Below, piece after piece: positions 2,338 to 29,726 of a stretch of 32,984 bases of DNA (position 1 is the first letter of the stretch; each line of letters begins with the position of its first letter). The stretch is from an uncultured Oscillospiraceae bacterium (GTDB lineage Bacteria > Bacillota > Clostridia > Oscillospirales > Oscillospiraceae). The notes under the pieces were generated by a model. The model saw only the letters and a list, made by a program, of their open reading frames with translations, did no database searches and had not been told where the DNA came from. The stretch lies in contig CALXGE010000014.1 in assembly GCA_944387775.1 (NCBI GenBank), forward strand, positions 1 to 32,984, given 5' to 3'. Both the position numbers and the translations under genes were made by a program.

Positions 2338-3177
2338 TTACAGCACCTCCGTCTGATGTCTGGTCACGTGGCAGTTGATGTTCACCGCCACCGGAAGCCC
2401 CGCAATGTGGGTGGGGCAGGTCTCAATATTCACCGCCAGGGCGGTAGTTTTCCCGCCGAAGCCCTGGGGCCCGATGCCCAGGGCGTTGATCCGCTCCAGC
2501 AGCTCCGCCTCCAGGTCCTGATAGAAGGGATGGGGATGGCGCTGATCCAAGGGCCGCATCAGAGCCTTCTTGGCAAGGTAGGCAGCCTTGTCAAAGGTGC
2601 CGCCGATACCCACACCCACCACGATGGGGGGACATGGATTGGGCCCCGCCTCCTCCACCACCTTCACCACGAAGTCCTTGACTCCCTCCACACCGTCGGA
2701 GGGCCGGAGCATCTTGATCTGGCTCATATTCTCGCTGCCGAAGCCCTTGGGGGCCACGGTGATCTCCACCTGATCCCCGGGCACCAGGTCATAGTAGATC
2801 ATGGCGGGGGTGTTGTCCCCGGTATTCACCCGGTTCAGGGGATCTCCCACCACGGACTTGCGAAGGTACCCCTGGCTGTAGCCCTGGCGAACCCCCTCGT
2901 GGATGGCCTCCGCCACGTCGCCGTTGATGTGGACCTCCTGGCCCACCTTCAGGAACACACAGGCCATGCCGGTGTCCTGGCAGATGGGGCGGTCGTTTCC
3001 GTCGGCGATCTCATAGTTCTCTACAATGCGCTCCAGGATCTCCCGGGCCTGGGGCCAGGGCTCCCCGGCGTGACTGGCGGTGATCCGCTCCCGGACGTCC
3101 CGGGGCAGGTGGCAGTTGGCCTGGATACACAGCCGGCGGACAGTATCGGTAATTTGCTGCGCCGCAATCTCTCTCAT
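2338..3177 (-). CDS. Fumarase/mesaconase-type hydratase, alpha (Fe-S) subunit
   Basis: 279 aa, the N-terminal catalytic subunit of two-subunit class I hydro-lyases. The oxygen-sensitive [4Fe-4S] cluster is expected to be held by C66 (in RPICQDTG), C182 (in GPNPCPPI) and C269 (in [10 protein letters not shown]); the spacing is close to that of class I fumarases. The GFGSENMSQ and GIGGTFDKA loops are also family hallmarks. Start ATG 3177 has AGGAGG ten bases upstream. It sits 24 bases after citF and one base before the beta subunit. Likely substrate, inferred from context, is mesaconate/(S)-citramalate; fumarate/malate is the alternative. Confidence 0.9.
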
Positions 3178-3201
3178 GGTTGTTCTCCTCCTGTCTGTTC
3201 C

Positions 3202-4617
3202 TTATTCTTCATCGGGTACGCTGTAGATCACATCCTGCAGCGCACCCTCCCGACTGATGACATTGGCCACCACCCGGTCCCCGTGGGGCATCTGCCGGGG
3301 TTTTCCGGTAATGCGCTCCGCCTTCTCCTTGAGGGCGTGGATGTCCAGCACCGGTAGCCCCGCCGCCGTGAGGCGCTCCTTCAGCTCCCGGTTCTTCTCA
3401 TTGACGGCGATGCCCCCCTGGGTCACCAGCACGTCGATATCCTTGCCGGGGGTGGAGACGCAGGTCACATGGTCGGTGACGATGGGCAGTCTTGCCCGAA
3501 ACATGGGGGCGATGATCATAGAGAGCTTGGCCCCCGCCGCAGTGTCGCTGTGGCCGCCGGAGCCGCCCATGATACAGCCGCCGGAGTCGGTGTGGACGTT
3601 GACATTGAAGTCGGTGTCGATCTCCGTGGCACCCAAGATCACCACATCCAGGCTGTCCACCACCGCGCTGCGGTGGCTGGGGCTGGCATAGTGCATGGCG
3701 GAGATCTCCTGGTGCCGGGGATCAGTGCGGATGGACTCCACCGCCTTGAGGTCAAAGCACTGGACATCCAGCAGGGAGCGGAAGCACCCGGCCTGGAGCA
3801 TATCCACCATATAGCCGGTGATACCGCCCAGGCCAAAGCTGCCCTGGATCTGCTCGCGGAGCATGATGTCCTTGAGGAACTTGGCCGCCGCCAGTGAGGC
3901 GCCGCCCGCCCCGGTCTGGAAGGAGAAGCCCTCCTTGAGAAGGCCGGAGTATTCAATGACCTTGGCGGCGTGCTGGGCCATCACCAGGCCCACCGGGTCC
4001 CGGGTAATCTGGGTGGTGCCGGAGACGATACCTTTAGGGTTGCCGATCTCCTCCACGCAGACCACGTAGTCCACATAGCTCTCAGGGATGGACCAGTCCA
4101 GGAGGGGATAGTCCACCAGGTTATCGGTGATGACCACTACCTTTTTGGCGTACATAGCGTCGGGGTAGGCGTAGCCCAGGCTTCCGCAGGCGGACTTGCC
4201 GTACTTGCCGGAGCAATTGCCCATGGGGTCCGCCGCCGGGGCGGCGATAAAGGCCACGTCAATGGGGGTCCGACCCTGGGCGATGTCGCTGGGCCGCCCG
4301 CCGTGGGTGCGGAATTCCACCGGTCTCTCCAGGATCCCACGGGAGATCTCCCGGCCTAGAGCGGCGGACATGTAGTCCGTCTGGATGCCGGTGACCACGT
4401 GGTTCTGGATGTGGTCCAACAGGGGCAGATGGATGTCAAAGAGGGAGCTGGCGTTGACGGTGAGGTCCCTTATGCCCAGCTGGGCCACCGCCTCCATCAC
4501 CAGATTGAGCACATAGTCCCCGTTGCGCAGGTGGTGGTGGAAGGATACGGTCATGCCGTCCTTCAGCCCGGCGAGAGCCACCGCCTCCCGGATGGAGCCC
4601 ACTACTTTCCCTTTCAT
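3202..4617 (-). CDS. citF: Citrate/citramalate lyase alpha subunit (acyl-CoA transferase)
   Basis: 471 aa, CitF family. This subunit exchanges the acetyl group on the acyl carrier protein for the incoming citrate or citramalate. Seen are the family blocks VSFHHHLRNGDYV (residues about 25-37), FQTGAGGASLAAAKFL, FGLGGITGYMVDML and the HTDSGGCIMGGSGGHSDTAAGAK stretch. An in-frame GTG lies three bases upstream, but the ATG at 4617 is preferred: AGGGAGG sits seven bases before it, and its TGATG overlap with the citE stop mirrors the citD-citE junction. The adjacent mutase and hydratase suggest citramalate lyase, (S)-citramalate to acetate plus pyruvate. No citC, citX or citG, needed to build or acetylate the cofactor, is in the window. 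Confidence 0.93.
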   Translation of the reverse strand: MKGKVVGSIREAVALAGLKDGMTVSFHHHLRNGDYVLNLVMEAVAQLGIRDLTVNASSLFDIHLPLLDHIQNHVVTGIQTDYMSAALGREISRGILERPVEFRTHGGRPSDIAQGRTPIDVAFIAAPAADPMGNCSGKYGKSACGSLGYAYPDAMYAKKVVVITDNLVDYPLLDWSIPESYVDYVVCVEEIGNPKGIVSGTTQITRDPVGLVMAQHAAKVIEYSGLLKEGFSFQTGAGGASLAAAKFLKDIMLREQIQGSFGLGGITGYMVDMLQAGCFRSLLDVQCFDLKAVESIRTDPRHQEISAMHYASPSHRSAVVDSLDVVILGATEIDTDFNVNVHTDSGGCIMGGSGGHSDTAAGAKLSMIIAPMFRARLPIVTDHVTCVSTPGKDIDVLVTQGGIAVNEKNRELKERLTAAGLPVLDIHALKEKAERITGKPRQMPHGDRVVANVISREGALQDVIYSVPDEE

Positions 4618-5495
4618 CACGCATCCTCCCTTCCAAGGCCCATCTCCTGGGCCATGGCAATGGTCTGCCGGGCCCGCTCCACAATGGGCGCATCAATCAT
4701 TTTACCCCGGAGGGCCACTGCCCCCTTGCCCTGCTCCTTGGCAAGGCGGATGGTCTCCATCACCTCATAGGCGTAGTCGATCTCCGCCTGGGAGGGGCTG
4801 AACACCCGGTTGATGGTCTCCACATGGCGGGGGGAGATGGATGCCTTTCCTGTAAAGCCCAGGGCCTTGGCCAGGGCGGCGTCCGTCTCGATGCCCTCGT
4901 CGTCGTTGACGTCGGTAAAGGGGGTGTCGTACACGTCCACCCCGGCGGCCCGGGCTGCCGTCACCAGACGGGTCCGGGCGTACTCGATCTCCCGGCCCTC
5001 CTTGGTGCGCTTGCACCGCAGGTCCGCCGTCAGGTCCTCGGCTCCCAGGAACAGCGCCGCCACCCGGGGGCTGGCGGAGGCGATGGCAAAGGCGTTCTCC
5101 ACGCCCAGAGCCGTCTCAATGAGAGCTACCAGGCCCACAGCTCCAGCGGCAAGGCCCAGCCGCTTCTCCGTCTCTGTGATGTAGGTATCCGCCTCCTGAA
5201 TATCCGCCGCAGAGCTGGTCTTGGGCAGCAGGATCAGGTCCGGCCGGCAGGGCAGGACCTCATCCAGATCCTCCTTCCAGTAGGGGGTGTCGATACCGTT
5301 GATCCGCACCACCCGTTCACAGCCACGGAAGTCCATATAGGTCATAGTGTTGCGCACCAGGATGCGGGCCGCGTCCTTTTCCGCCGGGGACACCGCGTCC
5401 TCCAGATCGAAGATCACGGCATCCGCCCCCAGGCAGCTGCCGTTGATAAGCATATTGGGCGTGTTGCCCGGTAAAAACAACAGGGAACGCCGCAT
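4617..5495 (-). CDS. citE: Citrate/citramalate lyase beta subunit
   Basis: 292 aa, CitE/HpcH aldolase-like TIM barrel that cleaves the acyl-carrier-bound citryl or citramalyl group. Motifs include the N-terminal RRSLLFLPGNTPNML, FDLEDAV (residues about 29-35, carrying metal and substrate ligands), the RVVRING arginine block, LLPKT, ALIETALGVEN and LGAEDLTADL. Length is normal for CitE (about 290-300 aa). The start codon overlaps the citD stop as TGATG, and the stop codon overlaps the citF start the same way, so all three subunits are translationally coupled. Citrate and citramalate lyases are not distinguishable by these motifs. Confidence 0.94.
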   Translation of the reverse strand: MRRSLLFLPGNTPNMLINGSCLGADAVIFDLEDAVSPAEKDAARILVRNTMTYMDFRGCERVVRINGIDTPYWKEDLDEVLPCRPDLILLPKTSSAADIQEADTYITETEKRLGLAAGAVGLVALIETALGVENAFAIASASPRVAALFLGAEDLTADLRCKRTKEGREIEYARTRLVTAARAAGVDVYDTPFTDVNDDEGIETDAALAKALGFTGKASISPRHVETINRVFSPSQAEIDYAYEVMETIRLAKEQGKGAVALRGKMIDAPIVERARQTIAMAQEMGLGREDA

Positions 5496-5767
5496 CAGTT
5501 ATTCCCCCTTCCCCGCCGGACCGCCGTCTCTACTCTGGCCCGGATCACACAGTCCAGGGCCCCCCGGTCCCGTACCGATACATTGGCGTTCTCCACGCCC
5601 AGCTCCGCCAGCACCGCCCGGACCGTCTCCCGGATGGCCTCGCCGAACTGCTGCCGGACCACCGATTCCAGGTGCAGCTGGATCCCTTCCCGGCCGGGCT
5701 CGATCTCCACATACACGTCGCTGGATTCCATGGTGCCCGCACAGGCTCTTTGCACGATCTCTGCCAT
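5495..5767 (-). CDS. citD: Citrate/citramalate lyase gamma subunit (acyl carrier protein)
   Basis: 90 aa, the acyl carrier of the lyase. S15 in AGTMESSD corresponds to the serine (Ser14 in Klebsiella CitD) that carries 2'-(5''-triphosphoribosyl)-3'-dephospho-CoA. The [15 protein letters not shown] and [15 protein letters not shown] blocks are also conserved. Start ATG 5767 has a GGGAGGAG ribosome site. It is the first gene of the minus-strand operon, behind the promoter at 5809-5837 and the palindrome at 5785-5800. Confidence 0.94.
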
Positions 5768-5784
5768 ATGTTCGCTCCTCCCTT

Positions 5785-5800
5785 ATTGAACTAGTTCAAT
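5785..5800. promoter_or_regulatory. Perfect 16-bp palindrome, candidate operator of the citD operon
   Basis: ATTGAACTAGTTCAAT is exactly self-complementary. It begins about nine bases downstream of the citD -10 box and ends 18 bases before the citD start codon, so a bound protein would block transcription at or just after initiation. The GntR regulator encoded at the end of this operon is the obvious candidate, by inference. Confidence 0.65.
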
Positions 5801-5808
5801 TTGCCATT

Positions 5809-5837
5809 ATTATATAATACAATTTTTTGCTTTGCAA
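5809..5837 (-). promoter_or_regulatory. Sigma-A promoter of the citDEF-hydratase-gntR operon
   Basis: On the minus strand, TTGCAA (5832-5837), a 17-base spacer and a consensus TATAAT (5809-5814). It lies 42 bases upstream of citD with the palindromic operator in between. Confidence 0.8.
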
Positions 5838-5856
5838 TCAATTTTTCCCTTTCATC

Positions 5857-5885
5857 TTTTCAAATTTCTCTGCTTCCGCTATAAT
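5857..5885 (+). promoter_or_regulatory. Sigma-A promoter of the P-loop gene at 5992
   Basis: TTTTCA (5857-5862; or TTTCAA one base later), a 17- (or 16-) base spacer and a consensus TATAAT (5880-5885). It is divergent from and close to the citD promoter, so the two units could be co-regulated. The transcript would have about 100 bases of leader. Confidence 0.6.
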
Positions 5886-5991
5886 AGCGGCAAAGGGGTA
5901 CCGCCGGGGTGGCCAAAAGAGCTGCCGGACTGTCCGGCGATCCCGCCGGGACGAATACGTTCCGGAACGACACGGAAAAGGAGGCGCTCCC

Positions 5992-6936
5992 ATGCAGGAT
6001 CTGCAGAAAAGCCATATTATCAGCACCTACTTTGCCCCCCGGGGTCACGCCCGTATGTACGCCCTGGGCATGCAGCTGGTGCAGCTCTACCTCTCCCCCT
6101 TTGACAAGCTCATCGGCATCATCGGCGAGGCCGGCTCCGGCAAGAGCGCCCTCATCCGGGGCATGTTTCCCGGCCTGGAGCTGACCAACGACGACAACGG
6201 CGTATACGTCCGGCCTCTGCCTCTTCTGGAGCAGGACCGGGGCTTCAGTCTTTTTGCCCCTCACACCTACCATGTGGACATCCGCTTTGAGACCGGCTTC
6301 ACCCAGATGAGCGTACTGGCCGACGCCATCACCGAAGCCCTCCACAGCGGCAAACGGGTGATTGTGGAGCACTTCGACCTTATCTACCCCATGCTGGAGA
6401 TCAAGGCAGACCTCCTCATCGGCGTCGGGGAGGAGGTGGTCATCACACGGCCCACCATCTTCGGCCCGGAGCCCAAGGATATCTACGACATCGTCTACCG
6501 CTCCCTGCCCTACCGGCTCATGGCCCACACCGCCGAAGATCTGTGCGAATTCTGCCTGCCCCGGGAGGAGGTGGAGCGCTGCGGCCACGACGACGTGAAG
6601 CACGGCTTTGTTCTCTCCTTCCCGGACTACGCCCCGGATGTGGACCTCAAGGAGCTGGAGGAGAAGGTCTACGACCTGATCCGGCAGGACCTGCCCGTCA
6701 CCTATCTGGACGAAAACCACGTCTCCATCGGTGGGGCGATCCATCCCTGCACCGGTCCCCGGATCCATGTGCCCAGCACCGGCCAGATCAAGGACTTCCA
6801 CCTTCTCTACCACTTCATGCACGATATCTTCAACAAGCGCTATCTGTTGGTGGGCTGCGTGGGCAAGGACAACCTGGACAAGCTGCGGAGATTGGAGGAA
6901 CAGGCCAAATTCCTCCGCCCCATCGTCCCCGATTGA
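5992..6936 (+). CDS. P-loop protein with C-terminal AlaRS second-additional-domain-like segment
   Basis: 314 aa, no signal peptide or membrane segment. A Walker A motif, GEAGSGKS, is at residues 45-52 after a short hydrophobic strand (KLIGIIG). The C-terminal part holds HPCTGPRIHVPSTGQIKDF, which resembles the C-G-G-T-H-V...TGEI signature of the AlaRS/ThrRS editing-type second additional domain (tRNA_SAD), with two extra residues between Cys and His. Its biochemical role is unknown to me; an ATP- or GTP-dependent enzyme acting on a small ligand is possible. ATG 5992 is preferred because AGGAGG lies seven bases upstream; the longer open frame to 5827 has no support. Divergent orientation from citDEF suggests a link to that pathway, by inference. 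Confidence 0.8.
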   Translation: MQDLQKSHIISTYFAPRGHARMYALGMQLVQLYLSPFDKLIGIIGEAGSGKSALIRGMFPGLELTNDDNGVYVRPLPLLEQDRGFSLFAPHTYHVDIRFETGFTQMSVLADAITEALHSGKRVIVEHFDLIYPMLEIKADLLIGVGEEVVITRPTIFGPEPKDIYDIVYRSLPYRLMAHTAEDLCEFCLPREEVERCGHDDVKHGFVLSFPDYAPDVDLKELEEKVYDLIRQDLPVTYLDENHVSIGGAIHPCTGPRIHVPSTGQIKDFHLLYHFMHDIFNKRYLLVGCVGKDNLDKLRRLEEQAKFLRPIVPD

Positions 6937-6970
6937 TTCCACCGTCTTCTCCGGGTCTGAAAGAGAAAAC

Positions 6971-7077
6971 GGCAGGCACGCCTGCCGGCAAGGTGTGTGG
7001 AGGAATGTCCCTTGCCGCCGCGGTCTGTCCCACTGAAAATCAAACTGTTTCCGGCGGTCAAAGCCGGTGGTTTCACC
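6971..7077 (+). other. Hairpin-rich stretch downstream of the P-loop gene
   Basis: The 359 bases between the genes at 5992 and 7296 hold three stem-loops before the terminator: GGCAGGC/GCCTGCC (6971-6986), GGCAAGG/CCTTGCC (6987-7016) and CCGGC/GCCGG (7051-7067). On the minus strand the first hairpin is followed by GTTTTCTCTTT and would read as a terminator. The stretch lies upstream of the response-regulator promoter, so it is most simply a structured 3' untranslated region. I could not match it to a known riboswitch. Confidence 0.4.
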
Positions 7078-7086
7078 CCTTCTGAA

Positions 7087-7128
7087 GCGAGGCTAACTGC
7101 CCTTTTCCGGGCATTGGCCTCGCTTTTT
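7087..7128 (+). terminator. Rho-independent terminator after the P-loop gene
   Basis: A two-tier hairpin pairs GCGAGGC with GCCTCGC on the outside and TGCCC with GGGCA inside around a TTTTCC loop, followed by TTTTT. It separates the gene at 5992 from the two-component operon. Confidence 0.85.
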
Positions 7129-7212
7129 ATGCGGTTTCTGCCTGTGGTTTTCCTCCGCCGGACGGAGGGCCGAAACACCGGTGCCTTTTGTCGCTTCAGA
7201 CGGAAAAATGTT

Positions 7213-7241
7213 TTGCGGCATAGGAAAAAATTTGGTACAAT
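7213..7241 (+). promoter_or_regulatory. Sigma-A promoter of the response regulator-kinase-lipoprotein operon
   Basis: TTGCGG (7213-7218), a 17-base spacer and TACAAT (7236-7241). It sits 55 bases upstream of the chosen start codon and downstream of the terminator, which marks the start of a new transcription unit. Confidence 0.7.
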
Positions 7242-7295
7242 ACTGCATATCGGAATGAGATCGCCCTTTTGGCGAGGAAAGGACAGGTGCCCGCC

Positions 7296-8579
7296 ATGGC
7301 CGCCAAGACACTATACTCCGTTGTTGTGGCAGATGACGAGGACGAGCTGCGGGAAGCAGTATGTACCATGATTCCCTGGGAGGACTACGGTTTCCGCCTG
7401 GTGGGAAGCGCCGGCCATGGCCTGGATGCTCTCCAGCTGGTGGAAAAACACGAGCCCGACCTGCTGCTGACCGATATCCGGATGCCTTTTATCTCCGGTA
7501 TTGAGCTGGCAAGACAGGTCCGGGAGGTCCGGCCTGCTACCAATATTGCCTTTCTCAGCGGTTACGACGACTTCGAGTACGCCAAGCAGGCCATTCAATA
7601 CAATATTATCAGCTATATGCTCAAGCCCCTGACCATGGAGGGCCTCTGCAAGGAGCTGCGCATCATTCACCAAAAAATCGACGCTCAGTTCGCCATGTTC
7701 CGCCAGGCATCCCCCGGCCCCCGGGGAATGGACCTCCGGACAGCCATGCTGATGCCGCTGGTGCTGGACGGCTATGCCGAGGCGGACGGAGAGGAGCAGG
7801 CAGAGACCTATGCCCGGCAGTGCGGTCTGCTGCGGGACAGCGACGATAAGCCCTGCTACACCGTCATGGTATCCACCCTGCTGGAGGAAAACGGCGTCAA
7901 CTGTACCGCCCCCTCCTTTGTGGCGTCGGTGGATCGCCTGGCATCCAAGTACCTGCGCAGCGCCCACTTCTTTGCCTCCGGCAAGGTGGTATCCGTGCTG
8001 CTGGGCAACCCCTCCGACTTTGAGGAATATCTTCACATCCTGGCCGATGAGATCCCTCAGATGGCCGACCGCGTACTGAACCGGCGCTGCCGCATCGGGG
8101 TAAGCCGGATGGTAGGGAATCTGACCGCCCTCCACAGTGCCTATCGGGAGGCTATGGAGGCCCTCCGGCAAGGTGACCAGACCGAAGGCGGCGCTCAGTT
8201 CATCAGCGATCTGTCCCCCGCCGCCAAGGGCGGCGGCCTGCTGTGCATGCGGGCGTTGGAGGAACTGGATCAGCACTATATGGACGCGGATCTGTCCCTG
8301 GTATCCCTCAGCGGGATGCTGGCCGTCAGCCCCAACCACCTCTCTGCCTGCATGAAAAAATACGCCGGCGAGACCTTTATCAATATCCTTATCCGCAAGC
8401 GGATGGAGGCCGCCCGGGAGCTGCTGGTGTCCTCCTCTCTCCGGATCCAGGAGATCGCCCAGCGGTGCGGCTACACCGACCAGCACTATTTCAGCTATTG
8501 CTTTAAGAAGTACTGTGGGGAATCCCCCAACACCATGCGCCGCCGGCTGGGTCCTGAGAAAGCAGGTGAGGTCCTGTGA
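7296..8579 (+). CDS. YesN-type response regulator with AraC DNA-binding domain
   Basis: 427 aa. An N-terminal receiver domain (about residues 8-125) has the acidic pair D13/D14, phospho-acceptor D60 in LLLTDIRMP, the Ser of FLSGYDDF and the Lys of MLKPL. A linker domain of about 200 residues follows. From about residue 325 there is a double helix-turn-helix of the AraC class (LSLVSLSGMLAVSPNHLSACMKK and IQEIAQRCGYTDQHYFSYCFKK). Such regulators typically activate sugar-uptake genes in Clostridia; here the likely target is the mgl operon at 11436. ATG 7296 has AGGTG about six bases upstream; a GTG at 7287 is an alternative. The stop overlaps the kinase start by four bases. Confidence 0.93.
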   Translation: MAAKTLYSVVVADDEDELREAVCTMIPWEDYGFRLVGSAGHGLDALQLVEKHEPDLLLTDIRMPFISGIELARQVREVRPATNIAFLSGYDDFEYAKQAIQYNIISYMLKPLTMEGLCKELRIIHQKIDAQFAMFRQASPGPRGMDLRTAMLMPLVLDGYAEADGEEQAETYARQCGLLRDSDDKPCYTVMVSTLLEENGVNCTAPSFVASVDRLASKYLRSAHFFASGKVVSVLLGNPSDFEEYLHILADEIPQMADRVLNRRCRIGVSRMVGNLTALHSAYREAMEALRQGDQTEGGAQFISDLSPAAKGGGLLCMRALEELDQHYMDADLSLVSLSGMLAVSPNHLSACMKKYAGETFINILIRKRMEAARELLVSSSLRIQEIAQRCGYTDQHYFSYCFKKYCGESPNTMRRRLGPEKAGEVL

Positions 8580-10291
8580 AGGGTGTATCCCGTACGGAAC
8601 TGCGCATTACTACCATACTCGTCTCCATGGTGGTGGGGCTGGTAACAGTGATCCTTTGCTGCTGCATTTTCATCTTTCTTAATCGTTACCGCAGCGCCAT
8701 GGTACAGAGTGCCCGCACCAGCACCGCCCAGGCGGTGTCTCAGGTGTCCAACACAGTGAGCAACTATCTCCAGGACATGGATCAGGCCATGTCCATGGTG
8801 GAGCGCTCTATGCTGGAGGACGCCGATAACCGGGACCGGATGTTAACTGCCTTCCTGATCTTCCGGCCCGATGTGGTGGCGGTGACCAGCTACTCCTACT
8901 CCGGTCAGCTGCTGGACTGCTGGTGTCTGGACCGGGAGCCCCGGGAGACCATTTCCCAGAATCTGTCCTTTGATCTGAATCGGGCCCGCTCCTCCGGGGG
9001 AGCCTACATGACCGCCCCCCACGTGGAGACCATTTTTGAGGAGTACTACCCCTGGGTGGTAACCATGACCACTCCTTTGAAGCCAGGCAACAAAGCCGCC
9101 TGGGTCTCCCTGGATCTGAGCTTCTCCAGCATCTCATCCTATATTAATAATGTAAGCATCGGCCAGCGGGGCTATTGCTTTCTCATGGACAAGGAGGGCA
9201 ATATTGTCTACCACCCGCAGCAGCAGCTGCTGTACGCGGGGCTGAAATCGGAGGACACCGAAGCCCTGGCCTCTCTGGCGGACGGTGCCTATGCCGATGA
9301 CACGGTGATCTATTGCCTCACCAGTGTGGCGGACAGTGACTGGCGGGTAGTGGGCGTAAGCTATGTGGACGAACTGGTTAACCGCAGTGTCAGTGAAATG
9401 ATCCATCTCTCTGCAATCCTGGCAGCGGTGCTGCTGGCAGCGGCGGTGCTGACCAGCTGGCTGCTCTTCCGTCTGCTGGCCCGGCCCCTGCGGGGACTGG
9501 CAGACGCCATGGAGCGCTTTGAGACCGACGCCGACCACTTCACATACCTCTCTGTGGGCGGCACCCGGGAGATCCAGGAGCTCTCCGGTTCCTTTGGGCA
9601 CATGGTGCTGCGGATCCAACAGCTGATGGCCACCGTCCGCGAGGAGGAGGTAAATCTTCGCAAGACGGAGCTCAAAGCCCTTCAAGCTCAGATCAACCCC
9701 CACTTCCTTTACAACACGCTGGACTCCATTGCCTGGATGTGCGAGCAGGGCCGCAACGCAGACGCGGTAAAAATGGTCCACGCCCTGGCCCGTCTTTTCC
9801 GCATCAGCATCAGCAAGGGCCACGAGCTCATACCCATTGCCAAGGAGATTGAGCACGCCGAGAGCTATCTCCAGATCCAGAAATACCGGTACAAGAACCA
9901 GTTCACCTATCAGTTTGACGTGGACCCGGCATGCCTGGATTACTACTGCAACAAAATTACGCTCCAGCCCATCATTGAAAACGCCATCAACCACGGGCTG
10001 GATCTGCTGGTGGACGAGGGCAGCATCACCGTACAGGTGTGCCAGGACGGGGATGACATTGTCTTCTATGTCCGGGACAACGGGGTGGGCATGAGCGATG
10101 AACTGATCCACGCCATTCTGGAACAGGGACCGGAGGACCGCACCGGCATTGGAATCCGGAATGTCAACGACCGGCTGAAGATCTACTTTGGCAAGCAGTA
10201 TGGCCTGCACATCACCAGCGAACCGGACGTGGGGACCTGTGTGGAGATCCGCATGCCCAAGATTCAGGAGGGGAACTATGAGGCGAAATAG
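8576..10291 (+). CDS. YesM-type membrane sensor histidine kinase
   Basis: 571 aa, GTG start overlapping the regulator stop (GTGA). A first membrane helix (about residues 10-33) is followed by an extracellular Cache-like sensor region to about residue 275, with motifs such as YYPWVVTMTTPL and GYCFLMDKEGNIVYHP. A second helix (about 278-305) and a HAMP region follow. The His_kinase domain has the phospho-acceptor H376 in QAQINPHFLYNTLDSI. A C-terminal ATPase shows the N box LQPIIENAINHG, DNGVGM and GIGIRNVNDRL. It phosphorylates the regulator encoded before it. The next gene, a sugar-binding lipoprotein, starts inside its last codons, suggesting that the lipoprotein delivers the signal. Confidence 0.94.
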   Translation: MKGVSRTELRITTILVSMVVGLVTVILCCCIFIFLNRYRSAMVQSARTSTAQAVSQVSNTVSNYLQDMDQAMSMVERSMLEDADNRDRMLTAFLIFRPDVVAVTSYSYSGQLLDCWCLDREPRETISQNLSFDLNRARSSGGAYMTAPHVETIFEEYYPWVVTMTTPLKPGNKAAWVSLDLSFSSISSYINNVSIGQRGYCFLMDKEGNIVYHPQQQLLYAGLKSEDTEALASLADGAYADDTVIYCLTSVADSDWRVVGVSYVDELVNRSVSEMIHLSAILAAVLLAAAVLTSWLLFRLLARPLRGLADAMERFETDADHFTYLSVGGTREIQELSGSFGHMVLRIQQLMATVREEEVNLRKTELKALQAQINPHFLYNTLDSIAWMCEQGRNADAVKMVHALARLFRISISKGHELIPIAKEIEHAESYLQIQKYRYKNQFTYQFDVDPACLDYYCNKITLQPIIENAINHGLDLLVDEGSITVQVCQDGDDIVFYVRDNGVGMSDELIHAILEQGPEDRTGIGIRNVNDRLKIYFGKQYGLHITSEPDVGTCVEIRMPKIQEGNYEAK

Positions 10292-11249
10292 ATGGGCTGC
10301 GGCATGGGCGGCACTGCTGTGCGTGTTCCTGCTGGGCTGCGGAGCGGACACCACTTACTCCGAGCAGCACACGGTGGCTCTGATAGCCAAGTCCACGGAA
10401 ACGGAATTCTGGCTCTCCGTCTTTGCCGGAGCAGAGGCTGCCGCTACCGAGTACAACCTGAAGCTCACTATCACCGGCCCTGAGACCGAGGAGGATTATG
10501 AGACTCAGAACCAGATGGTAGCCGACGCGGTGGCGGAGGGCGCTCAGGCCATTGTCTTTTCCGCTATCGACTATGAGAACAATGCCGCCGCCATCGACGA
10601 TGCCGCCAAGAAGGGGGCAAAGATCGTGGCCATCGACAGCAGCGTGGACTCCCAGGCGGTAAGCACCTACATCGGCACCGACAACTATGCCGCAGGTCAG
10701 ATGGCGGCCCAGGCTGCTTTGGATCGAATAGTGGGAACTCTGCGGATCGGGATCGTCAACTATGATATGAACAGCGCCAACGGCCAGGAGCGGGAACGGG
10801 GTGCCCGGGATCTTTTTTCCAGCACTGGTCGGGCGGAGGTAGTCGCTGCCATCAACACGCTGGCGGAGGCAGGTCATGCCCGGGAGGATACCGCGCAGAT
10901 GCTGGCGGACCACCCGGGGATCAACGTGCTGCTGGCCTTCAATGAGCCCACCAGTGTGGGCGCAGCCCAGGCGGTGGAGGAGCTGGGACTCTCAGAAGAC
11001 GTCTTTCTGGTGGGCTTTGATTCCAACGTAGCCACTGTGGAGGGGCTGCAAACCGGGTCGGTGGACGCCCTCATCGTCCAGAATCCCTACGCCATGGGCT
11101 ACCTGGGAGTAGAGAGTGCCTACAAGCTGCTCAGCGGCCAAGGGACAGGGCTTACGGCTGTAGTGGATACCTCCACCCAGATCGTTGACCGCGACAATCT
11201 CTTCTCCATGGACAGTCAAAAAGCGCTGTTTGCCTTTGAGTCCCGTTGA
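10278..11249 (+). CDS. Sugar-binding lipoprotein of the sensory operon (periplasmic-binding-protein type I)
   Basis: 323 aa. It has a short lipoprotein signal with lipobox LLGC (C21) and then a ribose/galactose-type binding fold in the normal N-to-C order: VALIAKSTETEFWLSVFAGAEAA, then AIVFSAIDYENNAAAIDDA, VAIDSSV, YIGTDNYAAGQMAA, LLAFNEPTSVGAAQA and VFLVGFDS. Start ATG 10278 (GGAGGGG upstream) lies 14 bases inside the kinase gene. There is no ATPase or permease directly beside it, and a promoter separates it from mglBAC, so it is probably the ligand-sensing partner of the kinase. An auxiliary transporter component is the alternative. Confidence 0.88.
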   Translation: MRRNRWAAAWAALLCVFLLGCGADTTYSEQHTVALIAKSTETEFWLSVFAGAEAAATEYNLKLTITGPETEEDYETQNQMVADAVAEGAQAIVFSAIDYENNAAAIDDAAKKGAKIVAIDSSVDSQAVSTYIGTDNYAAGQMAAQAALDRIVGTLRIGIVNYDMNSANGQERERGARDLFSSTGRAEVVAAINTLAEAGHAREDTAQMLADHPGINVLLAFNEPTSVGAAQAVEELGLSEDVFLVGFDSNVATVEGLQTGSVDALIVQNPYAMGYLGVESAYKLLSGQGTGLTAVVDTSTQIVDRDNLFSMDSQKALFAFESR

Positions 11250-11340
11250 ATTGGTGAATTTACACAATTTTTACCCGGTGTTTTTGTGCATGGAAAGAAA
11301 TTTTAATAGAAAATTACCCTCTTCGCAGTGATTTTTCACC

Positions 11341-11369
11341 TTGTTTTCTCACCCTCTTTCCTCTAAAAT
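11341..11369 (+). promoter_or_regulatory. Sigma-A promoter of mglBAC
   Basis: TTGTTT (11341-11346), a 17-base spacer and TAAAAT (11364-11369), 66 bases before the mglB start. The upstream 90 bases are AT-rich. The two TCACC-containing blocks, TTTTTCACC and TTTTCTCACC, at about 11331-11352 form a direct repeat that could be a response-regulator site. Confidence 0.65.
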
Positions 11370-11435
11370 TAAGTTATGAGGTGCGGGACTTTTGCGCAAA
11401 GGCCTGCCCAAATAAAAGGAAAAAGGAGTGTCTCT

Positions 11436-12764
11436 ATGAAAAAGAAGTTACTTGCATTTCTCCTGATGGCTGCCATGCTGCTCAGCCTGGTAGCCTGCGG
11501 CGGCACCAACACCGGCAACACTGGCAACACTGGCAATACTGGCAATACCGGCGACACCGCCACCAATGATACCGGCGATACCGCCGACACCGGCGCTACC
11601 GAGGTCGCCAACAAGAACAAGCCCCTGGTGTGGTTCAACCGCCAGCCCTCCAACAGCTCCACCGGCGAGCTGGACATGAACGCTCTCACCTTCAACGAGA
11701 ACACCTACTACGTGGGCTTTGACGCCAACCAGGGCGCTGAGCTCCAGGGTACCATGATCCTGGACTACATCAAGGCCAACATCGACAGCATTGACAAGAA
11801 CAACGACGGCATCATTGGCTACGTGCTGGCTATCGGCGACATCGGCCACAACGACTCCATTGCCCGTACCCGCGGCGTTCGTTCCGCTCTGGGCACTGCC
11901 GTTGAGAAGGACGGCGTCATCGACAGCACCCCCGTGGGCACCAACGTGGACGGCACTTCCGCTTTCGTGCAGGATGGCACCCTGGAAGTCAACGGCAAGA
12001 CCTACACCGTCCGTGAGCTGGCCTCTCAGGAGATGAAGAACTCCGCCGGTGCCACTTGGGATGCCGCTACCGCTGGTAACGCCATCGGCACCTGGGCTTC
12101 CTCCTTCGGTGATCAGATCGACATCGTGGCCTCCAACAACGACGGTATGGGCATGGCTATGTTCAACGCCTGGTCCAAAGCCAACGGCATCCCCACCTTC
12201 GGCTATGACGCCAACTCCGACGCCGTTGCCGCTATCGCTGAGGGTTACGGCGGCACCATCAGCCAGCACGCCGACGTTCAGGCTTACCTGACCCTGCGTG
12301 TGCTGCGCAACGCTCTGGACGGTGTGGACATCGACACTGGTATCGGCACCGAGGACGACGCTGGCAACGTGCTCAGCCCCGACGTGTTCTACTATGATGA
12401 GGCCACTCGTTCCTACTACGCCCTGAACGTGGCTGTCACCGCTGACAACTACGAGGACTTCCTGGATTCCACCGTTACTTACGCCCCCGTATCCAACCAG
12501 CTGGATGCTTCCGCTCACCCCGAGAAGAGCGTGTGGCTGAACATCTACAACTCCGCTGATAACTTCCTGGGTTCCACCTATCAGCCCCTGCTGCAGAACT
12601 ACGATGATCTGCTCAACCTGAAGGTGGAGTACATCGCTGGCGATGGTCAGACCGAGGCCAACATCACCAACCGTCTGAGCAACCCCAGCGCCTATGACGC
12701 CTTTGCCATCAACATGGTGAAGACCGACAACGCTGCTTCCTACACCACTCTGCTGAACCAGTAA
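11436..12764 (+). CDS. mglB: Galactose/glucose-binding lipoprotein MglB, circularly permuted
   Basis: 442 aa (usual mature MglB about 310). It has a lipobox LVAC (C21), an Asn-Thr-Gly linker (residues 24-60), then sequence matching E. coli MglB from about residue 86 onward (NKPLVWFNRQPS) through to its C-terminus (about residue 342). After a linker, residues 365-442 match MglB residues 4-85 (NIYNSADNF, VEYIAGDGQTEANITNRL, YDAFAINMVKTDNAA). Sugar-contact residues are kept in permuted order: N68, H138, D140, R144, W208, N234, D258, then D375 and F377; N256 of E. coli is Q277. The Ca2+ loop DKNNDG is at 120-125. AAGGAG precedes ATG 11436. Codons rich in GCT and CGT, unlike neighbours, suggest high expression. 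Confidence 0.92.
   Translation: MKKKLLAFLLMAAMLLSLVACGGTNTGNTGNTGNTGNTGDTATNDTGDTADTGATEVANKNKPLVWFNRQPSNSSTGELDMNALTFNENTYYVGFDANQGAELQGTMILDYIKANIDSIDKNNDGIIGYVLAIGDIGHNDSIARTRGVRSALGTAVEKDGVIDSTPVGTNVDGTSAFVQDGTLEVNGKTYTVRELASQEMKNSAGATWDAATAGNAIGTWASSFGDQIDIVASNNDGMGMAMFNAWSKANGIPTFGYDANSDAVAAIAEGYGGTISQHADVQAYLTLRVLRNALDGVDIDTGIGTEDDAGNVLSPDVFYYDEATRSYYALNVAVTADNYEDFLDSTVTYAPVSNQLDASAHPEKSVWLNIYNSADNFLGSTYQPLLQNYDDLLNLKVEYIAGDGQTEANITNRLSNPSAYDAFAINMVKTDNAASYTTLLNQ
11508..11552 (+). repeat. Five tandem 9-bp repeats in the mglB linker
   Basis: Five copies of a nine-base unit (AACACTGGC and one- or two-base variants) encode (Asn-Thr-Gly)5 just after the lipidated cysteine. Degenerate Asp-Thr-Gly copies continue downstream. 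The repeat forms a flexible tether and could change length by slippage without breaking the frame. Confidence 0.85.
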
Positions 12765-12807
12765 TCTGGTTTATAACCCCTGTTGAGTTGAACATCAAGT
12801 AACTTGT

Positions 12808-12861
12808 GCTATTAGGGTGAGGGGATTCTTCCTGCGGGGAGATGACCCTCTCCCTAATAGC
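12808..12861 (+). other. Long intercistronic hairpin between mglB and mglA
   Basis: GCTATTAGGG-T-GAGGG pairs with CCCTC-T-CCCTAATAGC, a stem of 15 pairs with one T-T mismatch. No clear T tract follows; a second CTAATAGC copy lies directly after. In the 180-base gap after a binding-protein gene such a structure usually protects the upstream mRNA or partly stops transcription, giving more binding protein than ATPase. Confidence 0.7.
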
Positions 12862-12944
12862 CTAATAGCCGCTTTTCCTTGGAAGCTGGAGCGGGTCGTC
12901 GCGGTCCGCCCCATCGGGCAATATGATAAACGGGAGAAACAAGA

Positions 12945-14453
12945 ATGGCAGATGCGAGAGATGATATTGTTCTGTCCATACGTGGTATGAGCAAGTCTTT
13001 CGGCCGCAACCGGGTGCTCGACCGCATCAATCTGGATGTGAAGCGTGGCACGGTGATGGGGCTGATGGGCGAGAACGGCGCCGGCAAATCCACCATGATG
13101 AAATGCCTGTTCGGCACATACCAAAAGGACGAAGGAAAAATCTTCCTGAACGGCAAGGAGATCAGCTTCTCCGGGCCTAAGGATGCCCTGGAAAACGGGA
13201 TCGCTATGGTGCACCAGGAACTCAACCAGTGCCTGGAGCGCAATGTGATCGACAATCTGTTCCTGGGCCGCTATCCCACCAACTCTGTTGGAGTAGTGGA
13301 CGAGGGACGGATGAAGAAAAAAGCGTCCGAGCTGTTTCGTAAGCTCGGCATGACGGTGAACCTCACCCAGCCCATGCGGAACATGTCTGTATCCCAGCGG
13401 CAGATGTGTGAGATCGCCAAGGCAATTTCCTATAATTCCCAAGTAATTGTTCTGGACGAGCCCACCTCCTCCCTCACTGTCCAGGAGGTAAACAAGCTCT
13501 TTGAGATGATGCGCATGCTCAAGGAGCAGGGCATCGCCCTCATCTATATTTCCCACAAAATGGACGAGATCTTCGAGATCTGCGACGAGATCTCGGTGCT
13601 CCGGGACGGCAACCTGGTGATGACCAAGCCCGCCAAGGAGACCAACATGAACGAGCTCATCACCGCCATGGTGGGCCGCTCCCTGGAGAGCCGCTTCCCG
13701 CCGGTGAACAACACCCCCGGCGAGACGATTCTCTCCGTGCAGCACCTGTCCACCAAGTACGCCCCCTACCTCCAGGATGTGTCCTTCGAAGTGAAGGAGG
13801 GCGAGATCTTCGGACTATACGGCCTGGTGGGCGCCGGGCGCACAGAGCTGCTGGAGACCATCTTCGGCGTGCGGACCCGGGCGGCGGGCCGCGTTTACTT
13901 CAAAAACCGGCTCATGAACTTTGACAGCGCCAAGGAGGCCATTGAGCATGGCTTTGCCATGATCACTGAGGAGCGAAAGGCCAACGGCCTCTTCCTCAAG
14001 TGCGACCTCACCTTCAACACCACCATCGCCAACCTGGAGCAGTATAAGGCCGGTCCGGCCCTGTCTGACAACAAGATGGTCAAGGCCACCAACAAGGAGA
14101 TCAAGATCATGCACACCAAGTGCATGGGCCCGGACGACATGATCACCAGCCTCTCCGGCGGCAACCAGCAGAAGGTCATCTTCGGCAAGTGGCTGGAGCG
14201 TGAGCCTCAGGTCTTCATGATGGATGAACCCACCCGCGGCATCGACGTGGGCGCCAAGTATGAGATCTACGAGCTTATCATCAACATGGCCAAGCAGGGA
14301 AAGACCATCATCGTGGTCTCCTCTGAGATGCCTGAGATTCTGGGCATCACCAACCGCATTGGCGTCATGTCCAACGGCTACCTCTCCGGCATCGTGAACA
14401 CCAAAGAGACGAATCAGGAAGAGCTTTTGCGTCTGAGCGCAAAATATCTGTAG
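12945..14453 (+). CDS. mglA: Galactose/methylgalactoside ABC importer, ATP-binding protein MglA
   Basis: 502 aa with two ABC domains in tandem, as usual for sugar importers of the MglA/RbsA type. Domain 1 has Walker A GENGAGKST (42-50), the degenerate signature MSVSQRQMCEIAKA and Walker B VIVLDEPTSSLT. Domain 2 has the degenerate Walker A GLVGAGRTE, the canonical signature LSGGNQQKVIFGKWL and FMMDEPTRGIDVGAK. It powers uptake through MglC of sugar delivered by MglB. GGGAG lies about eight bases before ATG 12945. It is separated from mglC by 15 bases. Confidence 0.95.
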   Translation: MADARDDIVLSIRGMSKSFGRNRVLDRINLDVKRGTVMGLMGENGAGKSTMMKCLFGTYQKDEGKIFLNGKEISFSGPKDALENGIAMVHQELNQCLERNVIDNLFLGRYPTNSVGVVDEGRMKKKASELFRKLGMTVNLTQPMRNMSVSQRQMCEIAKAISYNSQVIVLDEPTSSLTVQEVNKLFEMMRMLKEQGIALIYISHKMDEIFEICDEISVLRDGNLVMTKPAKETNMNELITAMVGRSLESRFPPVNNTPGETILSVQHLSTKYAPYLQDVSFEVKEGEIFGLYGLVGAGRTELLETIFGVRTRAAGRVYFKNRLMNFDSAKEAIEHGFAMITEERKANGLFLKCDLTFNTTIANLEQYKAGPALSDNKMVKATNKEIKIMHTKCMGPDDMITSLSGGNQQKVIFGKWLEREPQVFMMDEPTRGIDVGAKYEIYELIINMAKQGKTIIVVSSEMPEILGITNRIGVMSNGYLSGIVNTKETNQEELLRLSAKYL

Positions 14454-14468
14454 TAGGGAGAAAAGGCT

Positions 14469-16124
14469 ATGGTTTCAGAGAATAAGATATTGACAGCGGA
14501 ACAGGAGGCTCAGCTTCGCCAGCCCATCGACGAGACCGTTGGTGCCATTCAGGCGAAGATCAACGAGCTGCGCGCAGACGGCACCGACAAGGTGATTGAT
14601 ATCCAGAACAGCCTTGACAGCCTGAAGCGGGATAAGATCTACACCGCCCAGGAGAAGGAAGTCAAAGCCCAGGAGCTCCGTACAGCTCTGGAGCAGGCCA
14701 AGGCGGTGGAAGCAAAGAACAAGGACGCCATTACCAAGCTCATCGCCCAGGCTGAGAGCTACCTGAAGGACAACTACCAGGGCTACTATCAGGCTGTGGC
14801 AGAGAGCTGCAAGCTCGAGAAGGCCCAGGCGGAGGAAAACTACCGCCAGTCGGTAGCCGCTCTGGAGAAGGAGCACCAGGCTACTGTGGCCAAGCTCACC
14901 GACGCCGGTGAGATCAAGGACGAGAAATACGTCCACAAGAACCGCCTCTTCGACGCTAAGATGAAGCGGGAGAAGGACCTGCAGCAGATTAAGGATCGGC
15001 GGCACGCCGCTTTTGACCACAAGTATCACCTGATCGACCTGCTGCGCATGTCCAAGTTCACCTTCGGTGAGTCCATGGCTCAGAAGTGGGAGAACTACCA
15101 GTACACCTTTAACCGTCGCAACTTCCTGCTGCGCAACGGTCTGTACATCGCCATCATTATCATCTTCATCGCCCTTTGCATTATCACCCCCATCGTGAAG
15201 GGCCCCAGCGTACAGCTGCTGACGGTGAACAACATCCTGAACATCCTCCAGCAGGCCTCCCCCAGAATGTTCCTGGCGCTGGGCGTGGCAGGGCTGATCC
15301 TTCTGGCAGGTACCGACCTGTCCATCGGCCGAATGGTCGGTATGGGCATGACGGCCGCCACCATCGTGATGCACCAGGGTATCAATACCGGCTCTGTGTT
15401 TGGTCACATCTTTGACTTTACCTCCCTGCCGGTCCTGGCCCGGGTGTTCCTGGCGCTGCTGGTGTGCATCGTCCTTTGTACCGTGTTCACCACCATTGCA
15501 GGCTTCTTTACCGCCAAGTTCAAGATGCACCCCTTCATTTCCACCATGGCCAACATGCTGGTAATCTTCGGTCTGGTGACCTACTCCACCAAGGGTGTGT
15601 CCTTCGGTGCCATCGACACCACGATCCCCGCCATGGTTATCCCCCGTATCGGCCGCTTCCCCACCATTATTCTGTGGGCCGTAGCCGCCGTCGTGGTGGT
15701 GTGGTTCATCTGGAACAAGACCACCTTCGGTAAGAACCTGTACGCCGTAGGCGGCAACCCCGAGGCTGCTTCTGTGTCCGGTATCTCCGTATTCCTGGTT
15801 ACCGTGGGCGCCTTCGTCATGGCTGGTATCCTCTACGGCTTCGGCTCCTGGCTGGAGTGCCTGCGTATGACCGGTTCCGGCTCCGCGGCTTATGGCCAGG
15901 GCTGGGAGATGGACGCCATCGCGGCCTGCGTGGTGGGCGGTATCTCCTTCACCGGTGGTATCGGTAAGATCTCCGGCGTGGTAGTGGGCGTGTTCATCTT
16001 CACCGCCCTGACCTACTCCCTCACCACCCTGGGTATCGACACCAACCTGCAGTTCGTCTTCTCCGGTATCATCATCCTGGTTGCGGTTATGCTGGACTGC
16101 CTGAAGTACGTCCAGAAGAAGTAA
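14469..16124 (+). CDS. mglC: Galactose/methylgalactoside ABC importer permease MglC with N-terminal coiled-coil extension
   Basis: 551 aa, against about 336 for E. coli MglC. Residues from about 212 to the end match the normal permease: RNFLLRNGLYIAIIIIF, then LGVAGLILLAGTDLSIGRMVG, the GGNPEAASVSGI cytoplasmic loop that contacts the ATPase, and VVGGISFTGGIGK. Residues 1 to about 210 are extra, highly charged and rich in Lys, Glu, Ala and Gln with heptad-like spacing and no hydrophobic segment, so probably a cytoplasmic coiled coil. Start ATG 14469 has AGGGAG eight bases upstream. There is no stop or frameshift between the parts, so it is a genuine fusion as read. Function of the extension is unknown. 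Confidence 0.94.
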   Translation: MVSENKILTAEQEAQLRQPIDETVGAIQAKINELRADGTDKVIDIQNSLDSLKRDKIYTAQEKEVKAQELRTALEQAKAVEAKNKDAITKLIAQAESYLKDNYQGYYQAVAESCKLEKAQAEENYRQSVAALEKEHQATVAKLTDAGEIKDEKYVHKNRLFDAKMKREKDLQQIKDRRHAAFDHKYHLIDLLRMSKFTFGESMAQKWENYQYTFNRRNFLLRNGLYIAIIIIFIALCIITPIVKGPSVQLLTVNNILNILQQASPRMFLALGVAGLILLAGTDLSIGRMVGMGMTAATIVMHQGINTGSVFGHIFDFTSLPVLARVFLALLVCIVLCTVFTTIAGFFTAKFKMHPFISTMANMLVIFGLVTYSTKGVSFGAIDTTIPAMVIPRIGRFPTIILWAVAAVVVVWFIWNKTTFGKNLYAVGGNPEAASVSGISVFLVTVGAFVMAGILYGFGSWLECLRMTGSGSAAYGQGWEMDAIAACVVGGISFTGGIGKISGVVVGVFIFTALTYSLTTLGIDTNLQFVFSGIIILVAVMLDCLKYVQKK

Positions 16125-16155
16125 GATTTCCGTTTCCCTGGATTATAGAGACAAC

Positions 16156-16195
16156 ATACGGCCCGGTGCGCATTTGCATGTGCACCGGGCCGTAT
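16156..16195 (+). terminator. Strong hairpin terminator after mglC
   Basis: ATACGGCCCGGTGC pairs with GCACCGGGCCGTAT, a GC-rich stem of 14 pairs. The following T content is modest (TGTGTTCC). It lies between convergent genes, mglC and the glycosyltransferase, and may stop transcription from both sides. Confidence 0.75.
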
Positions 16196-16260
16196 TGTGT
16201 TCCTGCGATCAGGAAAGGAACCACCCGCGGAGGGCCGACGCTGCGGTGCCAGTCCTGTTG

Positions 16261-17094
16261 TTACAGGCTTATCGGCCAGGTCCTGCGGGTCATTTGGGCG
16301 TAATGCTGGTACAAAATCCCAAAGCGCCGAAAATATTTTGGCTTCCAGGGTTTTTCTTTCCCGCAAAAGTGCAGGATGGCTGTATGCTCCATCACCCACC
16401 GAATATCACAGACGCCGCCGCTGCGCAGGAGATAATTGCTGTAGTTGCGGGCATCGTAATTCCATTGCACGTCCTCCAGTGGAAGAATCTGTTTGCTATA
16501 GAGGGCGTTGAGGACGTCCTGGTCCGGCAGTACCAGCTCCTTACGGTGCTGTGCTACATAATCGAACAGCACCTGAGGCCGGATTTCCTGCCGCCCGAGA
16601 TCCAGATCCATCAGCAACACGCCGGAGTTATAGTAGTCCTGTTCCGTTCCCAAACGCAGCTTATTGACGCTATTTGCCAGCTCCGTCTTGCCCGTGTGAG
16701 CAGCGGCGGCAAAGAGGTTTCCATTCAGCTCTGTCTCCCACAGTGGCCGGAGGGGATTGATAACCAGGATATCCGGGTCAAGATAGAGGACCCGGTTCAG
16801 CTCCGGGGGCAGAAGCTGCGGGGCCAGCAGGCGATAGTACATCTCCTTGGGATACTGCCGGCTGGCCGGCGCGTTTTTAAAAAGGCGCTCATCCACGCAA
16901 ATTGGGTAAAAGGAATACCCATATGCATCGCACTGCTGCCGCACGTCGCTGAGGGCCTCCGCAGGGATCCCGCTGTGGAGCAGATAGAGGGAAAACGTCT
17001 CTCCCGGGTTATTGACCTGCAAAGAGGTAAGCAATATCTGAAGCTGAGGCAAATAGCGGTGATCCAACGTGGTAAGAAGCGAAATTCTGTCCAC
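16261..17094 (-). CDS. Family 8 glycosyltransferase
   Basis: 277 aa. It starts ISLLTTLDHRYLPQLQILLTSL, typical of GT8 retaining transferases, and carries the metal-binding DxD motif at D106-x-D108 (RVLYLDPDIL), then NSGVLLMDLDL and DQDVLNAL, ending with the family HFCGKEKPW block. It likely moves a hexose from a UDP-sugar to a lipid or cell-surface acceptor; the acceptor cannot be told. GTG 17094 is supported by AAGGAGG eight bases upstream, and the sequence is family-like from its first residues. It is the last gene of the coiled-coil/ftsH/DUF308 operon. Confidence 0.9.
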   Translation of the reverse strand: MDRISLLTTLDHRYLPQLQILLTSLQVNNPGETFSLYLLHSGIPAEALSDVRQQCDAYGYSFYPICVDERLFKNAPASRQYPKEMYYRLLAPQLLPPELNRVLYLDPDILVINPLRPLWETELNGNLFAAAAHTGKTELANSVNKLRLGTEQDYYNSGVLLMDLDLGRQEIRPQVLFDYVAQHRKELVLPDQDVLNALYSKQILPLEDVQWNYDARNYSNYLLRSGGVCDIRWVMEHTAILHFCGKEKPWKPKYFRRFGILYQHYAQMTRRTWPISL

Positions 17095-20689: not shown

Positions 20690-21529
20690 CTAGGCCATCC
20701 ACTCCAGCACCTTGCTCCCGTCCTGGACGCCCTCCTGATACAGGCGCTGCAGAGCCTGTTTGTCCCGCTTCAGGGTGTCCACCCCGAAGGTATCCGCCGG
20801 GGAGAGGATGAGGACGCGGCCCTCCCTCTGGTACCGCTTTGCCGTCGCAATAGCCGCGTTGTACCGCTGGGCCCGCAGCAGCAGCTGCCGCGCAGCCACC
20901 GGATATCTGCGCTGGATGGTGGAGGCAAGAATGGGATCCTTGCCCGGCTTCCGAATCACATCCGCCGGCTTTGTCAACAGCAGCACCACCCGGTCGCACC
21001 CCTCAGAAAACGCCTTTTCCACCGGCACCGGGTCGCTGAGAGCGCCGTCAAAATAGGGCACACCATTCAGAACAAAGGGCTTATTCACCCCGGGGACACA
21101 GCTGGAGGCCATGAAGATCCGGTAGTCATCCTGGCGGAGGTCCGCCTTGGTAAAATAGCGCGCCTCCCCTGTCTCCGCATGGGTAGCCACCACGAAGAGC
21201 CGGGCGGGGTTCGCCATCAAAGCTTCAAAATCCATGGGGTCCTCTCCTCCGGAGTTGCTCAGGGTGCCATAGACATAGTCCAGGTTGATATACGAGCCGG
21301 TGTGCAGCAGGTTTCCCATTCCCATGTACTCCTTGCGGAGAGCGTACTCCTGGTAGTAGCGGTAGTTGCGCCCCTGCTGCCCCGCCAGATAGGACGCCAT
21401 GTTGGCGCTTCCGGCGGATACGCCGATACAGCAGTCAAAGTGGACTCCATGCTCCATGCAGCAGTCCAGTATCCCTGCGGCATAGATGCCCCGCATCCCG
21501 CCGCCTACATCCACAATTCCGGCCACCAT
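20690..21529 (-). CDS. Patatin-like phospholipase (RssA/YjjU type)
   Basis: 279 aa. A glycine-rich oxyanion loop GGGMRG (9-14), the nucleophile elbow GVSAG with S38, and the second dyad residue D161 in YFDGALSDP give a complete Ser-Asp lipase dyad. There is no signal peptide, so it acts on lipids or acyl esters from the cytoplasm; the substrate is unknown. Start ATG 21529 coincides with the family start (VAGIVDVGGGMRGIY), although the ribosome site (AAAGGA) is unusually far upstream. tetR follows 104 bases downstream on the same strand. Confidence 0.9.
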   Translation of the reverse strand: MVAGIVDVGGGMRGIYAAGILDCCMEHGVHFDCCIGVSAGSANMASYLAGQQGRNYRYYQEYALRKEYMGMGNLLHTGSYINLDYVYGTLSNSGGEDPMDFEALMANPARLFVVATHAETGEARYFTKADLRQDDYRIFMASSCVPGVNKPFVLNGVPYFDGALSDPVPVEKAFSEGCDRVVLLLTKPADVIRKPGKDPILASTIQRRYPVAARQLLLRAQRYNAAIATAKRYQREGRVLILSPADTFGVDTLKRDKQALQRLYQEGVQDGSKVLEWMA

Positions 21530-29724: not shown

Positions 29725-29726
29725 CC

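Follow-up and report, generated by a model that had tools for sequence, protein, structure and literature searches.

Permuted and canonical MglB receptors

The sugar receptor MglB-2 of Treponema pallidum (TpMglB-2) was described by Brautigam et al. in 2016 as a circularly permuted MglB, with the strand order 5-4-6-1-2-3 rather than 2-1-3-4-5-6 (PMC4990184). TpMglB-2 binds D-glucose with a conformational change. Treponemes have homologues with a similar topology, as do many Gram-positive bacteria, often gut commensals, and the names Type Ic and Cluster Bc were proposed for the permuted class (PMC4990184). E. coli MglB (GGBP; 2gbp and 2fvy) has the same bilobed fold, as seen from the comparison with TpMglB-2 in that paper. 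Here, we analyzed a 32,984-nucleotide stretch of DNA from an uncultured Oscillospiraceae bacterium (contig CALXGE010000014.1, positions 1 to 32,984), which we call the window. A gene on its forward strand, at 11436 to 12764, had been read in an earlier note as a naturally permuted mglB. Our analysis of the translation, Pfam and PDB matches, relatives, and a structural model indicates that this gene very probably encodes a permuted Type Ic/Cluster Bc sugar receptor that is anchored in the membrane and serves an Mgl-type (CUT2) ATP-binding cassette importer.

The window protein is collinear with T. pallidum MglB-2

The frame is open throughout and encodes 442 residues with no break, as the earlier note had described. 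Its ATG at 11436 is preceded by AAGGAG. A longer open reading frame starting at 11376 was considered less likely because the signal peptide begins at 11436. This signal peptide (residues 1 to 21; 11436 to 11498) ends in LVAC, which we take to be a lipobox with C21 as the lipid anchor. A low-complexity linker rich in Gly, Asn, Thr, and Asp follows (residues 22 to 58; 11499 to 11609), and the predicted local distance difference test score (pLDDT) of the model falls below 50 at residues 14 to 53. Residues 59 to 345 (11610 to 12470) match E. coli MglB from about residue 86 to the C terminus by Pfam, PDB, and profile alignment, so that the chain begins at the strand that had been proposed. This part comprises N-lobe strands 4 to 6 and the C-lobe, and the stretch directly after the linker, NKPLVWFNRQPS, is the counterpart of the fourth N-lobe strand of MglB. 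By analogy with TpMglB-2 (PMC4990184), and from the model, residues 346 to 363 (12471 to 12524) would provide a fourth hinge crossing and an extended linker. The permuted segment comes last (residues 364 to 442; 12525 to 12761). It is equivalent to the MglB N terminus with N-lobe strands 1 to 3, and it carries the sugar contacts D375 and F377.

Pfam reported the last two-thirds of Peripla_BP_4 at residues 88 to 296 (profile positions 94 to 256 of 258), followed by Peripla_BP_7 (PF18610) at residues 363 to 433. The latter match was full length, covering all 71 model positions, and scored 137.6 bits against a cut-off of 36.8. The permuted segment belongs to Peripla_BP_7, and we noted no difference from this family. 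NF011924, the NCBIfam equivalog for canonical MglB, matched in two stretches with 86.1 bits. Its cut-off of 420 was not reached by the window protein and was passed by no genome in a 199-genome phylum sample. In a PDB search, the best matches were three T. pallidum MglB-2 (Tp0684) sequences (5jx2, 6bgc, and 6bgd), with E values of 1e-88 to 1e-86. T. pallidum MglB-2 was collinear with the window protein across about residues 59 to 440, and E. coli-type MglBs aligned as two separate pieces.

An AlphaFold model built with 30 sequences had a mean pLDDT of 77.6, the five models spanning 61.0 to 77.6. Its strands at residues 364 to 369, 395 to 400, and 422 to 427 lie at the places of TpMglB-2 strands 300 to 307, 331 to 337, and 358 to 361, which have been equated with E. 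coli strands 1 to 3 (PMC4990184). A structure prediction had been proposed as a check, and in this model the strands of residues 364 to 442 do fall at places equivalent to N-lobe strands 1 to 3. Residues 346 to 363 sit where a fourth hinge crossing would be expected in this moderate-confidence model. When the model was searched with Foldseek, the top four matches were T. pallidum MglB-2 entries (392 to 397 columns, 40 to 41% identity in the Foldseek column, and TM-scores by query of 0.62 to 0.69). Canonical MglBs came next with 295 to 298 columns, among them one unnamed solute-binding protein (4z0n).

The permuted MglB order is thus borne out by the Pfam order, by collinearity with TpMglB-2, and by the split NCBIfam match. 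Because of this collinearity, the Pfam order, and the model strands, we assign the window protein, from its sequence, to the Type Ic/Cluster Bc permuted class as a new member; T. pallidum MglB-2 is the founding member. The two proteins share their strand order, their lipoprotein nature, and an Asn256-to-Gln change in the sugar site. E. coli MglB and the canonical MglBs of the phylum (L097 to L103) differ from the window protein in that their N-terminal segment is at the N terminus. The earlier note was unaware of a case described for the MglB family. That claim of novelty for the class fails, since the permutation, a crystal structure, glucose binding, and Gram-positive homologues were all published in 2016 (PMC4990184). 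The gene is instead placed in a structurally solved class.

The sugar site is conserved

We took the ten sugar-contact positions from the table that compares E. coli MglB with TpMglB-2 (PMC4990184). Nine are kept, as had been claimed. E. coli D14, F16, N91, H152, and D154 correspond to window residues D375, F377, N68, H138, and D140, and R158, W183, N211, and D236 correspond to R144, W208, N235, and D258. The tenth, E. coli N256, is Gln277 in the window protein, as it is Q215 in TpMglB-2 (PMC4990184). In an alignment of 87 permuted sequences, which includes the window's own copy, nine of the ten positions were invariant, and D140 was Asp in 86/87. The Asp at the D14 position was kept across the aligned sequences, unlike in TpMglB-2, which has Asn311 there (PMC4990184). 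E. coli MglB therefore shares with the window protein both nine of its ten contacts and, as shown below, Mgl-type partners. This conservation suggests D-glucose, and probably also D-galactose, as the ligand.

The permuted order is widespread but patchy

The assembly of the window genome has 151 contigs and is 84% complete, and in such an assembly an unusual gene order could be an artefact of assembly or rearrangement. However, of 477 pattern matches in a scan of genome contigs, 457 were confirmed as relatives, and the best 80 of these were kept. All 80 aligned with the window protein as a single stretch that began at residue 60 or earlier and ended at residue 440 or later. The same order is therefore found in other records and in the solved T. 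pallidum structures. This refutes an artefact, to which we give next to no chance and which had already been judged unlikely before these comparisons. The nearest named relatives were Oscillospiraceae and Flavonifractor records. For later comparisons, L001, a duplicate of the window, and L093, with an incomplete open reading frame, were excluded from the permuted set.

Peripla_BP_7 was present in 2/398 genomes of a phylum sample, 4/391 of a class sample, 6/120 of a sample of the window's family, and 28/250 of a second family's sample. The phylum, class, and family samples overlap, and the window's genome is included. No match was found in 14 named control genomes, and none of the 33 pattern matches in a scan of viral contigs was confirmed as a relative. 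Permuted MglB is widespread but patchy. Frequencies of 5% and 11% among the species sampled in two families are the pattern expected from gene loss or horizontal transfer.

The permuted segment most likely descends from MglB

Brautigam et al. did not settle whether MglB was the source of the permuted segment and raised a hybrid as the alternative (PMC4990184). In a hybrid, the C-terminal segment would have been taken from a different gene and would have converged on the MglB fold. Free gapped alignments of the segment to MglB were not significant, and at first this seemed to us to favor a hybrid. With our own Smith-Waterman profile, 89/400 shuffles reached the score. In semi-global profile alignment 28/300 did so (95/300 with steeper gaps), and in piecewise alignment 56/200. 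The hhalign probability was 1.9%. Furthermore, a nonequivalent MglB stretch starting at column 140 scored about as well in the semi-global alignment as the N-terminal segment (35/300 vs 28/300 shuffles).

However, a two-block test in structural register gave a different result. The score was reached by 0/20,000 fixed-register shuffles and ranked first of 1,946 slid positions. When the shuffles were also slid, it was reached by 0/2,000 at a slack of 3 and by 5/2,000 at a slack of 8, and with a smaller 30-sequence profile by 3/2,000. That profile was our first; for the later one, of 34 sequences, five divergent sequences were added and L092, the same gene as in L130, was dropped. The motif matches quoted in the earlier note between the permuted segment and the MglB N terminus have no significance in free alignment and are significant in structural register alone. 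Several points weigh against our interpretation: the failed free alignments, the similar score of a nonequivalent stretch, and the fact that the blocks were picked with the motifs in view, to which the slid null is a partial answer. Even so, because the two-block test in structural register was significant, an MglB ancestor is the most likely source of the permutation, rather than addition of an unrelated piece, and we consider a hybrid unlikely. The register test thus bears on the question left open in 2016 and speaks for permutation of MglB itself.

Membrane tethering has been suggested as the reason for the permutation (PMC4990184). A lipoprotein-like signal peptide also opens 7/8 canonical-order MglB sequences, and the start of the eighth had been trimmed to a later Met. 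In addition, the window's genome contains a canonical operon (L133) as well as the permuted one. Because canonical MglBs are also lipoprotein-like and both operon types are found in this genome, tethering alone is a weak explanation.

Permuted mglB heads an mgl operon with an extended MglC

Permuted mglB heads an mglB-mglA-mglC operon. It is followed by mglA (12945 to 14453, forward strand), which encodes a 502-residue ATPase by NCBIfam, and mglC (14469 to 16124, forward strand), which encodes a 551-residue permease by Pfam and NCBIfam. The best NCBIfam matches were to MglA (665.6 bits, curated cut-off 828) and MglC (267.6 bits, cut-off 386), both below the cut-off. A linked MglA-type ATPase and MglC-type permease are what is expected of an Mgl (CUT2) importer, and the operon most likely encodes a glucose/galactose transporter of this kind. 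MglA was found at 76 of the 80 loci with the best relatives, and at the other four (L027, L041, L048, and L066) the sequence ends about 240 bases or less from the end of mglB. In the proposed mechanism, the receptor chain would begin with the fourth N-lobe strand, continue through the C-lobe and an extra (fourth) hinge strand, and finish with N-lobe strands 1 to 3. It would close on D-glucose, and probably also on D-galactose, and then pass the sugar to MglC, with MglA supplying the power.

The Mgl permease model covers only residues 217 to 551 of the window MglC. Residues 1 to 215 (14469 to 15113) form an N-terminal extension, recognized by alignment and in a model, that is charged and mostly helical, with predicted helices at residues 10 to 36, 39 to 54, 60 to 142, and 146 to 196. 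Pfam gave no match over residues 1 to 210. The MglC model was weak in its membrane part (mean pLDDT 58). In the extension, every ten-residue block between residues 11 and 190 had a pLDDT above 80. Since it precedes the first membrane helix, the extension is expected to be cytoplasmic.

We counted the extension at 82 permuted loci (the 80 plus L131 and L132), 65 of which have an open reading frame reaching the MglC C terminus. It was present in 64/65. The 65th (L087) has a split gene, with an upstream fragment that matches MglC residues 5 to 228. Among the other 17 loci, the sequence stops before mglC in 9, and 7 have a truncated mglC whose 5' part starts with the extension; the last is L056. 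There, the MglA match (6150 to 7244) breaks off at residue 346 and about 3.7 kb contained no MglC, unlike at other roomy loci.

The canonical MglBs L097 to L103 differ from the window protein in having a partner MglC without a long N-terminal extension. In total, none of eight MglCs beside a canonical MglB had it (333 to 353 residues, the 337-residue MglC of L133 included). L105, L114, and L119 were excluded from the canonical set because the open reading frame picked at the locus center was not the binding protein. L133 itself is a second, canonical-order MglB-like operon on contig C43 of the window's genome (G000), at 3016 to 6889. Across the 391-genome class sample, the extension occurred in three genomes (G000, G069, and G628), all among the four with permuted MglB. 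These samples were without Treponema, and the T. pallidum permease Tp0686 lies outside the counts. The link between extension and permutation is an association, and because the permuted operons share descent it may reflect a single event. It nevertheless gives the permuted receptor a concrete partner feature. None of our literature searches, which were aimed elsewhere, turned up the extension; this does not establish its absence from print.

A sensing set lies upstream of the operon

Three genes on the same strand precede mglB. By Pfam, they encode a response regulator with an AraC-type output domain (7269 to 8579), a histidine kinase with dCache, HAMP, His_kinase, and HATPase domains (8576 to 10291), and a sugar-binding lipoprotein of canonical, non-permuted order (about 10278 to 11249, the start being chosen by its lipobox). 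All three were present at 29/67 loci with more than 5 kb upstream. The set resembles the three-component sugar-sensing sets of clostridia, such as XylFII-LytS-YesN. The lipoprotein is probably the sensor subunit of the two-component system, and the set most likely regulates the mgl operon. Promoter and terminator patterns in 11200 to 16300 were at chance level, and Rfam and tRNA scans of the window gave no matches.

A divergent permuted MglB is linked to a GGDEF protein

The fourth genome of the class sample with a permuted MglB (G732) encodes a divergent form that is 55% identical (L130:9639-10901, reverse strand). No MglA or MglC match was found within the 16 kb examined. Upstream on the same strand are genes for two proteins, one with an HD domain and one with GGDEF, and both have hydrophobic segments at the N terminus. 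Within the genus of G732, 5/61 genomes, G732 included, have the divergent MglB. The order GGDEF-HD-MglB was the same in all five, with gaps of -23 to 33 bases (L130:9639-13027, L165:3455-6829, L166:6383-9772, L167:3643-7033, and L168:3134-6529), and none of the five loci had an MglA or MglC match within the 13 to 16 kb examined. GGDEF and HD-GYP proteins are named for consensus motifs. The GGDE core was found in four GGDEF proteins and SGDE in the fifth. In all five HD-GYP proteins, the HD pair is LD and GYP is GYY or GYH. Because both motifs are altered, the HD-GYP protein probably lacks phosphodiesterase activity. The cyclase-linked MglBs agree with the window protein at nine of the ten sugar-site positions; at the tenth, D140, four have Ile and one has Ser. 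Judged by sequence, this form may be a membrane-anchored sugar sensor that acts on the cyclase. A limited literature search found no paper linking permuted MglB to GGDEF proteins, which does not establish that none is in print. A patatin/DUF6363 protein is encoded in the window (20690 to 21529), and a protein of these two families is also encoded next to the cyclase-linked MglB (L130:8720-9574), perhaps by chance.

The cyclase-linked loci raise the possibility that permuted MglB is mainly a sensor and not a transport receptor, since its gene in this one genus follows those for a cyclase and an HD-GYP protein, and neither MglA nor MglC was matched in the DNA examined there. However, in the window, mglA and mglC are directly downstream, and the linkage to MglA at the best relatives is broken only where the sequence is cut. 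In the second family's sample, mglA adjoins permuted mglB at 27/27 loci other than the cyclase-linked one. Moreover, the upstream sensor set of the window owns a separate canonical binding protein. A mainly sensory role is therefore quite improbable, and a transport receptor remains our interpretation of the window protein. The two forms might be joined in a broader proposal, which we put forward tentatively and rate somewhat short of an even chance. In it, the permutation and the cytoplasmic helical MglC domain of about 215 residues would together mark a distinct transporter subtype. In one genus, the receptor would have left transport and, in a three-gene operon with a membrane GGDEF cyclase and a degenerate HD-GYP protein, become the sugar sensor of a cyclic di-GMP switch. 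If this is true, the cyclase-linked loci would encode a sugar sensor built from a permuted receptor.

Farther downstream in the window, three URO-D family proteins are encoded in series (27671 to 30782), followed by a Peripla_BP_4 binding protein at 30862 to 31941.
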